Source: Utricularia gibba
Lineage: Eukaryota > Streptophyta > Magnoliopsida > Lamiales > Lentibulariaceae
Reading direction: 5' to 3'
Length of the DNA: 64,000 nucleotides
Assembly (NCBI GenBank): GCA_002189035.1
Contig: NEEC01000016.1
Span: forward strand, 310,001-374,000
Part shown: positions 29,498 through 43,235 of the stretch, piece after piece
Position numbering within the stretch: the stretch's first letter is position 1
How the letters are laid out: each line of letters starts with the position of its first letter
Made by a program: the position numbers and the translations under genes
The notes under the pieces: model-generated
The model's database searches: none
What the model saw: only the letters and a program-made list of their open reading frames with translations
What the model was told of the DNA's origin: nothing

Positions 29498-32400
29498 ATG
29501 GTGACCACTGGGTCGTTAGGCGTTGACAAGAAGTCGAATTTTGTGAATCTGAGTTTCAAAATACCCTACTATACTCATTGGGGCAGCAGCTGCTGGTGTC
29601 CGGATCAAGCCCAGCCCTTGGCTCATGGAATGTGAAGAGAGGCCTGCTTTTGAAGCCTTTTCACCTGGGGGATGAACTAATATGGTGTGGCACCTTGCGT
29701 GTTCCAGTTGGTTTTAATTCAGACTACACTTATTGTGTGGTGGACGACGAGAAAAATGTGCTGCGATCCGAGGCTGGAAAGAAGAGGAATGTTCTAGTGC
29801 CAAGTGGTGTTCAAAATGGGAAGCTTGTTGAAATTCATGACCTTTGGCAGGTGTCCTCTATGATGCTTAATGGTCTCTTTGTTTTTTTCACTTCGTTTTG
29901 GTTAAGTGTTCTTGGACGGCCTAGACTACAACATCATCACTAATGATCGTATGCCTAGAAATCATTGGCACTGATTCGAAGAATCTTGTTTGAGTGCTTG
30001 TGAATGAATCTGATGAAATTTTATTCATGCATGAGTGCAGAATGGCTCTGATGAGATACCTTTTAGAAGTGCCTTTAAAAATGTAATATATAATAAAGGT
30101 TTTAATCTAGAGGATGGAATACCTGCTCAGCATATTGAGGATCTTTTTGACACTGAAGGTATTTTATTTCTCATGCACTTTAGATTCATTCATGATGAGA
30201 AAATCAGCAGACATCTTATCTAAAATGTTCATTTTTTTCTGTTCTTTTTTCCTCGTGAATGTGTTAAACAGATGCGGTGATTGTACAATTCAGAATTTGC
30301 TGTCCCAATATTGCGGCAGACACCCTAGTGAGTTGTTTTTTATGTAGTATTCACAGTTCGCTGGCCCAGCATTGCAGTGGGCACATTCGTAAGATGCTTT
30401 TCTATCTCTATTCATTTTCTGTAAACTTCGCAGGTACATGTTATCGGTAGCCCTTCAAAGCTGGGGAACTGGAAGGCTGAGGGCATGGTGAAACTCAAGT
30501 ATTCTGGTGAATATGTTTGGGAAGCTGAAGTAGCTTTGAAAAAGGAAGAATTCCCTGTGAAATATCCTTCACTTACTCTACTTTAATTTCCAGTTTCAAT
30601 TATTCTGACTTGCCTTTTCTTTTGTAAACGTGGGCATTTTCAAGGTGTCTTGCCTTAATTATTTTCACATACAGATATTGTAAAGTTGACAAGGATAAAA
30701 AATTATCTTTAGAAATTGGTGGTAATAGGGAGTTCATTGTTGACTTCACAACAAGCCAACCAAAGTATGTTGTTCGTTCTGATGGCTTAATGCGAGTAAG
30801 CTCCCCCTTGTGTATTCCATGAACCTTGATGTTTAGTTTCTCATCGTTTATCCTTTTCTGTTTCCAGGAAATGCAATGGAGGGGTGCAGGTGTAGCCATC
30901 CCTATGTTCTCCTTAAGATCAGAGGCCGATTTGGGTGTTGGTGAGTTTCTAGACCTCAAGTTGCTTGTAGATTGGGCAGTAGAATCGGGCTTCCATTTGG
31001 TGCAGCTGTTGCCAGTCAATGATACATCTGTGCATGGGATGTGGTGGGATTCGTATCCTTACAGGTGAAAGGATTCATTCCTGCAAACGGACTCTATGTT
31101 CACCATTATTGGTCAATCCTGTGATATGTTCTGAGATACCCGCAACTCTTGATCGGCAGCTCTCTCTCAGTATTTGCATTGCATCCATTGTACCTTAGAG
31201 TGCAAGCACTCGCATCAAAAGTCCCAAAAGATATTGAGGTGCTATTTGCATTCTTCCTTATGCTGTACGTTGATAGCTGATTTCTCATATTATGTGCTAT
31301 TTCTCTCCTTGAACATTATTTATCACAAACAGATTTTTTTTTTGATTCATCTGTAACTGCTTTCTTTTTCCGCAGCAAGAGATCCAGAGTTTGAAAGAAC
31401 AGCTGGACAAAAAGGTGCTCCTTCAATATTTCATTGAGCTTCCAGTGTGTTCTTCTAGAGATTCATGATAGGTCACTTTTTTGGGTTTTTATTCGTGCTT
31501 TCAAAATCTGATGGTCGACCTTCATATACCTCAGAGGGTATCAAAGCTGGGAGTGTACAGTTTCTAACATAAGCTGCACCAAAAGTTATAAGTTTGGAGC
31601 TATTTGCAGGATGTAGATTATGAAGCTACAATGTCAGCAAAGCTTTCACTTGCCAAGAAAATCTATAATTTGGAGAAGGAAATTACTTTCAGTTCGGCTG
31701 AATTCAAGAGTTACTTCTCTGAGAATCAGGTTACAAAATCTTTGCTTTAAGTTCATCTATATGCTAGTGTATGTGTTTTTGTAACGCGTTTGTATATTTA
31801 TCTGGATTCTAGGAGTGGCTAGCTCCCTACGCAGCCTTCTGTTTCCTGAGGGACTTCTTCGAAACCTCAGATCACAGCCAATGGGGACGTTTCTCTGTAT
31901 TCTCGAAGGAAAAGGCAATACAATCAGTAGATCTTATCATTTTTTTTATACTTTTTTCACTGAGTTACTATATTCTAACAAGCTATTTATGATCTGTAGC
32001 TGGAAAAGCTTATCTCGAGGGATAGCCCTCAGTACGATGTAATTCGTTTTCATTACTACATCCAATTCCACTTGCACATGCAAGTAAGTGAAGCTGCTTT
32101 TTTCTGAGTTTCTTCTTCTTCATTTTTGCGACTGGTGAGTAAATCTGCATTTCTGATCATGTTAGCTCTCTGAAGCTGCTGAGTATGCAAGAAAGAAAGG
32201 GGTGATACTAAAGGGAGATCTCCCAATTGGTGTAGACCGAAACAGTGTTGATACTTGGGTGTATCCAAATCTCTTCCACATGAACTCCTCAACTGGCGCA
32301 CCTCCTGATTATTTTGACAAGAATGGGCAGAACTGGGGTTCCCTACCTATAACTGGGAGGAAATGTCAAAGGATAACTATGGTTGGTGGCGAGCTCGTCT

Positions 32401-34470
32401 CTCACAGGTTGTGTTCAATCTTTTCATGCATGATTGCACATAGATACAGCAGTATTTAAGAATTGTGCGCTTTGCTTGTGTTAACAGATGTCAAAGTACT
32501 TCACAGCATATCGGATTGATCATATACTGGGATTCTTCAGAATCTGGGAGCTCCCAGATCATGCAGTGACTGGACTCTGTGGAAAATTTCGGCCATCCAT
32601 TCCCCTGAGTCATGTGGCATTCCTACCTTGTTATTCTCTTTATGTTCATTTTCAGTTGCCCGTGTGAGTTTCGGTAATAAGCTGTGCGGTTGCATTGCAT
32701 GTATTCTAGGAAGAGCTCGAAAGGAAGGAATATGGGACTTCAATCGTCTGAGCCGACCCTACATTACCAGAAAGATATTACAGGTATCAAGTTTCATTTG
32801 CTGCTTCAAAAAAAATTCATTGTTGATGTTGATGCTTCTTTTGTGCATGTTTCTGCATTCACATTATAGGATAAATTTGGAGATTCATGGACGATGATCG
32901 CTTCCATCTTCCTCGATGAATCTCAGGCAGATCATTATGAGGTGCTGCTTCACCTTTTTTTGTTGCTTTTAAAACTAGAAAGTTCTCACAGTACATGCTA
33001 TCTGATATACGCAGTTCAAAGAGGACTGCAATACTGAAAAGAAAATTTTGTCCAAGTTGAAGTCACACTCGGCAAAATCCATTTTTCCAGAGAGTGAAGA
33101 AAAACTGCGGCGTGAACTCTTCAATCTTCATCAGGCTAGTCGAGTGTCTTTGTTGCATAGAAGTAAAAGATCACACCACAAAAGCACAGCCAAGATCATA
33201 CCATGCTTTGTCCTGTTGGTAAATTCATATTGTTGCTCATTTACAGAACGTAGTCCTCATCAGAGATCCAGAGGATCCAAGAAAATTTTACCCAAGATTC
33301 AACCTCGAGGACACCACAAGCTTTAATGGCTTGGAAGAGAAGAGGTATAGAGCTCGAGAGAAGCTGAAGTTTCCTGTCTTTTTCCTTCTCAGTTATATAT
33401 ACATGGCTACATTGCTTGGCAGTAAGAATGTCCTGAGAAGGCTCTATTATGACTACTATTTTCACCGGCAAGACACTCTGTGGCGTCAAAATGCAATGAA
33501 GACATTGCCTGCTCTCTTAAAGTCATCAGATATGCTGGCCTGTGGAGAAGATCTCGGGCTGATTCCCTCATGTGTTCACCCGGTACAATCTCCAAGGCCT
33601 TGGGATCACAATAGTTTCTCTTTTCAGTTTCAAATCTCTCCTATTCCTGGCATTCTCATTTGCCATTGGATCATTTTTCCATGCAGGTTATGCTAGAACT
33701 TGGTCTGATTGGTTTGCGGATTCAGCGCATGCCGAGTGAGGGAGGCGTCGAGTTTGGCAACCCATCGCAGTATAGTTACATGACGGTACTGTCTCCTAAA
33801 AGTTGAATGAACTCCCTCGTGCCAAATATATGAATGAACCTGGGAAACAGATATCTTGTTTCTTCTTATTGTGTAGGTATGTGCTCCATCCTGCCATGAC
33901 TGCTCCACTCTTCGTGCTTGGTGGGAAGAAGATGAAGAACGTAGATGCAAATTCTTCAATGCCATGGTAGGCTCCGACTCACTGCCACCGGAAAAGTGCA
34001 CGCCGGAGATCACCCATTTTATCCTGCAACAGCACATTGAATCTCCCTCCATGTGGGCCATTTTCCCACTTCAGGTAACTTTCTCTTGTCAACTGCATGG
34101 TAGATTGGAACTGCTGCATTCACTGGTCAATGATGGTTGTCTGCAAATACCAGGATCTTCTTGCCCTGAAAGAAGATTACACAGCACGTCCTGCTACCGA
34201 GGAAACAATAAACGACCCAACAAACCCGAAACACTATTGGAGATACCGTAAGTTCACAAGGATGATCTTGAGACTTGATTCAGCACCATAGATCATAAAA
34301 ACCATGCTTGCTCTATCTTCCAAAACAATGCCTATTTTCCTGACAACACTTATGGTTCTCTGTCCCCAGGAGTGCATGTGACTGTAGAGTCGCTACTGAG
34401 GGATGAAGAGCTTACATCCACCATTAAAGGCCTTATCCGTAGTAGCGGGAGATCTACACCCTCACCCTGA
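29498..34470 (+). CDS. DPE2: Cytosolic 4-alpha-glucanotransferase DPE2, with three one-base deletions
   Basis: Twenty-two exons from ATG 29498 to TGA 34470, about 929 residues, aligning throughout with plant DPE2. Two N-terminal CBM20 starch-binding modules (YYTHWG..VSGSSPALGSW and VHVIGSPSKLGNWKAEG) precede a GH77 domain split by a DPE2-type insert. Catalytic residues are present: nucleophile Asp in YRIDHILGF, acid/base Glu in CGEDLGLIP, third Asp in PSCHDC. Known role: transfers glucose from exported maltose to cytosolic heteroglycan at night. Exon phases close only if one base is added at three places: the G run 29580-29583, TT at 32339-32340 and AAA at 32720-32722. Exon lengths 353, 242 and 74 each become multiples of three with one base added. 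The fourth intron (30562-30668) is AT-AC. GC donors occur at 31915 and probably 33135. Confidence 0.95.
30562..30668 (+). other. U12-type AT-AC intron within DPE2
   Basis: The intron begins ATATCCTT, the exact U12 AT-class donor, and ends TTTTCAC. A branch-site match CCTTAAT lies at 30653-30659, about 10 nt before the 3' end. Only these borders restore the family-conserved FPVKYRYCKV across the exon 4/5 junction; a GT-AG choice (CCT/GTGAAA to ACATACAG) gives an immediate stop. Confidence 0.9.
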
Positions 34471-41578: not shown

Positions 41579-43235
41579 ATGAGCCTTGAGGAATCCCTGA
41601 GATCTCTCTCACTCGACTACTTAAATCTCCTGATCAACGGCCAGGCCTTCAGCGATGTGACTTTCAGCATCGACGGCCGTCTCCTCCACGCCCACCGCTG
41701 TATCCTGGCGGCGCGTAGCCCTTTCTTCCGCAAATTCTTCTCCGGTGCTGACGCGCCCCGCCCGCTGCTCTTAGAGGCGGGGTTTCCCAGGTGGTGGTCC
41801 CGATCAACTCTGTGGGCTACGAGGTGTTTCTGTTCATGCTCCAGTTCTTGTACAGTGGCCAAGTCTCGATTGTTCCTCACAAACAGGATCCCCGGGCGGA
41901 CTGTGGTGACCGCGGATGTTGGCATACGCATTGCTCCGCCGCCGTGGCCCTCGCCCTTGAAACCCTTGCCGCCGCCAGATCCTTCGGAGTCGAGCAGCTT
42001 GCTTTGCTCACACAGGTAATGATAAAAATCGAGTCTTTTTTAGCTTTGACTTGTGGGGTTTCGGGGTTAGATAATACTTCTGATTTTCAATCACTTCTTG
42101 CATGATTTCTGCATCAAACCGCAAGAGTTTCATGATCTGTTAGTGACTTTGAGGTGTATGTACCTATTGATTGATCACCGGAAAGCTTTTCCCTTTTGGT
42201 GACTTGATTCGATCACTGCAGCCATTACCTTCTTCCATGCTTTCAGAATCATCCCTCCATTCTTTGTCTGGTTTAAACAGTGTCTAACGAGTGTTCTTTG
42301 CAGAAGCAATTGATGAGCATGGTGGAGAACGCTTCGATCGAAGATGTGATGAAGGTTTTAGTGGCTTCTAGAAAGCACGAAATGCATCAACTGTGCGACA
42401 CTTGTTCACATTTGGTGTCAAAATCAGGTCTCCTGCCGGAGGTTCTAACAAAGCATCTTCCGATGGATTTGGTCGCAAGAATCGAGGAGCTCCGGCTTAA
42501 GTCCGCCATCTGCGGCAGCAACCGGAAGATCCATCTCCACCATCACCACCACCTCCACGATGGCAACGACAGCAAGATCCGACGGATGCGGAGCGCCCTC
42601 GATTCCTCTGACGTGGAGCTCGTCAAGCTGATGGTGATGACAGAGGGTCTAAATCTCGACGAATCGTTGGCATTACACTACGCGGTTGAGAATTGCAGTA
42701 GAGAGGTAGTAAAGGCTTTGCTCGAATTGGGCGCCGCCGATGCGAACTTCCCGGCGGGGCCGGCGGGGAGGACGCCGTTGCACGTGGCGGCGGAGATGGT
42801 GTCGCCGGACATGGTGGCGGTGCTGCTGGACCACCACGCGGATCCCAATATCCGCACCATTGATGGGGTCACGCCGTTGGACGTTTTGAGAACCCTAACG
42901 AGCGATTTTCTGTTTAAAGGAGGGGTACCGGGGCTCTCTCACATTGAGCCGAATAAGCTCAGGCTTTGCCTCGAGCTCATGCAGTCCGCCGCGGCGGTGA
43001 TTGACAGAGAAGAAGGAAATGCGGCGGCGGCAGCAGCAACAGCCCTTTTTCCTCCGATATCAAGCGGCGGGAACATGGGGTACCTGAACTTGGGAACAAT
43101 AATGGCCAGTGGCGTCGGTGGCCGGAAACTCACGGATAGAGAAGAAAGCAGCACCAGTAGCAGCCGTAGCAACCAGAGGGATTCCACGAGCCACCGCTGC
43201 GGAGCTACTTCCCCACGATGTATCCTCATTATTGA
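41579..43235 (+). CDS. BOP: BLADE-ON-PETIOLE (NPR5/6-like BTB-ankyrin) protein, with two one-base deletions
   Basis: Two exons (41579-42015 and 42304-43235) give about 456 residues once two lost bases are allowed for. The start MSLEESLRSLSLDYLNLLIN and the BTB/POZ domain SDVTFSIDGRLLHAHRCILA are typical. A zinc-type CGDRGCWHTHC follows, then an NPR core (ASIEDVMKVL), ankyrin repeats (ALHYAVENCSREVVKALLEL, TPLHVAAEMVSPDMVAVLLD, HADPNIRTIDGVTPLDVL) and the tail HIEPNKLRLCLELMQSA. BOP proteins act with TGA bZIP factors to pattern leaf bases, axils and abscission zones. The frame breaks at the G run 41777-41780 within the BTB domain, and again at the CCCC run 43211-43214 near the end. With one base added in each run, both exon lengths become multiples of three and the protein ends SPTMYPHY. 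Without the second base it would run on to 43368 with an unrelated tail. Confidence 0.95.

Follow-up and report, generated by a model that had tools for sequence, protein, structure and literature searches.

A probable AT-AC U12-type intron in the DPE2 gene of Utricularia gibba

The DPE2 gene of Utricularia gibba appears to contain an AT-AC intron of the U12 class. The sequence analysed, here termed the window, is a stretch of 64,000 nucleotides (G000:C402:310001-374000), and genome-wide searches covered the 100.1 Mb assembly in its 516 contigs. Positions 30562–30668 of the forward strand form the fourth intron of the gene model, which is 107 nt in length and in phase 2. The probability that it is a genuine AT-AC U12-class intron, one that the minor spliceosome would excise, is put at about 0.94, as judged from the DNA sequence. 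The intron was delimited by motifs, the exon model and an enumeration of possible borders. It lies between exon 4 (30434–30561), whose phase 2 end reads ...GAAGAATTCCCTGTGAA, and exon 5 (30669–30795), which starts with ATACAGATATTGTAAAGTT and encodes ...KYRYCKV...; both exons, also on the forward strand, were placed by exon assembly together with border enumeration.

At the nucleotide level, the donor at 30562–30569, ATATCCTT, is an exact copy of the published consensus (PMC2831892). The 3′ end of the intron reads ...TTGCCTTAATTATTTTCAC and includes the branch-site core CCTTAAT at 30653–30659, which is complementary to the GTAAGG of the genome's own U12 snRNA. The putative branch adenosine, 30658, is 10 nt before the last base of the intron, and the terminal AC at 30667–30668 constitutes the 3′ splice site, as read from the sequence and from the border enumeration. 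The branch site as a whole, GCCTTAAT, is near-consensus and differs at two positions from TCCTTAAC. The term 'textbook', used in the first-pass annotation for the full set of signals, is apt for the donor, the branch site being close to consensus. Introns with AT-AC ends that are spliced by the major (U2) spliceosome are known, e.g. in human SCN4A (PMC2831892), and these introns of the sodium channel genes have the terminal dinucleotides in common with intron 4. They have G at position +5 of the donor, however, whereas intron 4 has C at +5, together with the complete TATCCTT and a branch site of the U12 type. Removal of intron 4 by the major spliceosome is accordingly considered very improbable.

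The reading frame provides the most stringent test of the borders. Donors from 30500 to 30639 were combined with acceptors up to 30759, with GT-AG, GC-AG, AT-AC, AT-AG and AT-AA pairs allowed. The frame remains open in 74 of the border pairs, and one of the 74, 30562/30668, keeps the sequence KYRYCKV (within FPVKYRYCKV). The exon codons up to 30561, ...GAA GAA TTC CCT GTG AA, are then continued from 30669 by A TAC AGA TAT TGT AAA GTT, and the spliced peptide at the join is EEFPV-K-YRYCKVDKDK. Owing to local repetition, six border pairs that share one register yield this same peptide, and the frame alone therefore leaves the cut ambiguous to the base. Only 30562/30668 has known termini, and the exact cut is fixed by AT...AC. 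The earlier assertion that no other borders preserve KYRYCKV is hence borne out for pairs with known terminal dinucleotides. A later AC at 30671–30672 also matches the string pattern, yet it breaks the frame. If intron 4 is left unspliced, the frame shifts and stops follow.

The protein domain spanning the join leads to the same borders. A Pfam CBM_20 match covers residues 3–91, with the junction near residue 62. Sequence up to exon 4 scores 28.6 bits against this domain, and the addition of exon 5 brings the score to 43.9 bits. An ordinary U2 intron of the GT-AG or GC-AG type with other borders would have to be drawn from 12 such pairs that hold the frame open. All 12 of these pairs remove conserved CBM20 residues, at least around VKYRYCKV, and none agrees with the CBM_20 model that spans the AT-AC junction; the chance that such an intron lies here is judged to be very slight. 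The position, AT-AC subtype and U12 class first proposed for intron 4 are thus upheld by the donor, the branch site, the AC end and the retained frame.

The complete AT-AC U12 signature is found once in the window, with none expected from 100 shuffles. Genome-wide, the string pattern has nine matches versus seven for a reversed control, a count so little above the control that the genome-wide search was dropped as evidence. As the string signature is weak at this scale, the case for the intron is decided by its position at a coding junction and the frame that results. Folding of the intron 4 RNA is no better than that of shuffled sequences (z = −0.02).

One of the other eight pattern matches, L041, belongs to a bystin-like gene (PF05291), close to its 3′ end, and is probably a second AT-AC U12 intron in the same genome. 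This candidate (L041:1501-1604) is the apparent last intron of its gene. It resembles DPE2 intron 4 in the ATATCCTT donor, the branch site (TTCCTTGAC), the AC end and a frame that is open across the putative join, and differs in the gene that harbors it.

The gene that carries intron 4 encodes a cytosolic 4-alpha-glucanotransferase. Exon assembly and domain matches define a coding region at 29498–34470 on the forward strand, with 22 exons and 21 introns. The model product displays two CBM_20 domains followed by Glyco_hydro_77 (Pfam matches), which is the domain order of DPE2, and this locus is the sole match in the genome to a query made of the second CBM20 and part of GH77. Another GH77 gene, on contig C496, has a DPE1-like start and gives no match to the CBM20-GH77 query; it looks like the plastidial DPE1, a gene distinct from DPE2. 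The CBM20-CBM20-GH77 architecture and the single matching locus agree with the original identification of the gene as DPE2. Two types of relatives were tried as comparisons and set aside. Bacterial relatives, which might have offered an intron-free reference, were found at six loci and align over the GH77 part only, from residue 104 at the earliest, and the junction is not covered. PDB relatives have coverage of GH77 only.

The assembled gene shows three changes of frame, at GGGG 29580–29583 in exon 1, at GGGG 32335–32338 in exon 12 and near 32722 in exon 14. Such single-base breaks raise the question of whether DPE2 is a decaying pseudogene and intron 4 a relic, in which case the class of the intron would be unchanged and its function lost. 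Each break, however, looks as if a single base had dropped out within a G run or next to it, a type of error seen in long-read assemblies. No further in-frame stop is present, the DPE2 splice sites are intact throughout and this is the sole copy found. In addition, an unrelated BTB-domain gene in the window, at ∼41580–41900 (BOP/NPR1-like by eye), has a similar frame change within a single exon, which makes assembly error likelier than decay of DPE2. The three breaks are most likely assembly errors, and loss of function of the gene is regarded as improbable.

Components of the minor spliceosome are encoded in the genome. There is one gene each for U12 (86 bits), U6atac (87 bits) and U11 (74 bits), at loci L009, L010 and L044. 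Upstream of all three genes lie a perfect USE, TCCCACATCG (−65 to −76), and a TATA element (−31 to −33). This arrangement of USE and TATA is that of expressed plant snRNA genes. The U12 snRNA carries GAGTAAGGAAAAC; pairing of this element with CCTTA is possible and would leave the next A bulged. The U11 RNA, with AAAAGGG as its pairing region, has the 5′ start TAAAAGGG, which can pair with TCCTT, and U6atac carries AAAGGAGA, which can also pair with TCCTT. A search for U4atac gave no match here, and the same query was silent in every genome searched. At the protein level, a gene for a homologue of CCDC84/CENATAC is present, as are three loci of the DIM1 family, of which that on contig C451 is of the TXNL4B kind (L032:1501-1665; G000:C451:1912998-1913373). 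The assignment comes from a protein comparison in which the C451 query, made of hand-joined exon translations with exon edges set by eye, gave E values of 5.6e-54 to human TXNL4B versus 8.6e-20 to U5-15K. In human cells, the splicing of AT-AN introns is promoted by CENATAC, and TXNL4B is its strongest interactor (PMC8280824). The TXNL4B-type DIM1 is likely a plant partner in AT-AC splicing.

The proposed course of splicing is as follows. The donor would be recognised by the U11 snRNA, and the U12 snRNA would pair with CCTTAAT such that adenosine 30658 is bulged. U11 would then be replaced at the donor by U6atac. Excision would join 30561 to 30669 and restore the second starch-binding domain. 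Splicing of intron 4 itself, as well as each RNA pairing step, is a prediction from the primary sequences.

Intron 4 closely resembles the known AT-AC introns of plants. In common with plant U12 AT-AC introns, it has the ATATCCTT donor, the AC terminus, a short length and a phase other than 0, and the 10 nt distance of its branch site from the end fits the CCTTRAY located ∼10–13 nt from the end in that class. There is no substantive difference from the class beyond the two branch-site positions that depart from TCCTTAAC. U12 introns avoid phase 0 (PMC7367187), and the phase 2 of intron 4 agrees with this. The portrayal of AT-AC introns as a small minority of U12 introns was overstated. In the IAOD database their share is 26% in Arabidopsis, where 269 U12 introns are recorded, 22% in rice, 23% in soybean and 13% in maize (PMC7367187), i.e. 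about a quarter in plants, with maize at the lower value. Conversion of AT-AC introns to the U2 type is rare (PMC2831892), and intron 4 may well be old in plants for this reason. A literature search for DPE2, At2g40840 or glucanotransferase in connection with U12 found nothing on intron 4; U12 databases may already contain the intron as an entry for the Arabidopsis gene.

Intron 4 is an ordinary case and adds a further example to a familiar class that has hundreds of members per plant. It has been suggested that the intron ties the use of starch-derived maltose to minor splicing. This holds only trivially, in that the transcript requires the removal of intron 4; a special link of starch use with minor splicing, or any regulation through it, is at most suggested by the presence of the intron. 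Perhaps inefficient AT-AC splicing limits DPE2 output, such that the night-time use of starch-derived maltose reports on, or is set by, minor splicing dependent on CENATAC/TXNL4B; this is a speculative proposal and thought unlikely. DPE2 would be a reasonable gene to follow in mutants of minor-spliceosome factors.

With intron 4 in place, a correct gene model is obtained for DPE2, a gene central to starch use. It is plausible that standard gene finders overlook intron 4, as had been predicted, and an annotation restricted to GT-AG would trim residues off the DPE2 starch-binding domain. For automatic annotation, the three frame breaks would be no less disruptive than the AT-AC intron. Elsewhere in the gene, GC-AG ends give the best model for the introns at 31915 (AAG/GCAATA) and 33135 (CAG/GCTAGT), where nearby GT donors would instead insert a few extra residues into DPE2.
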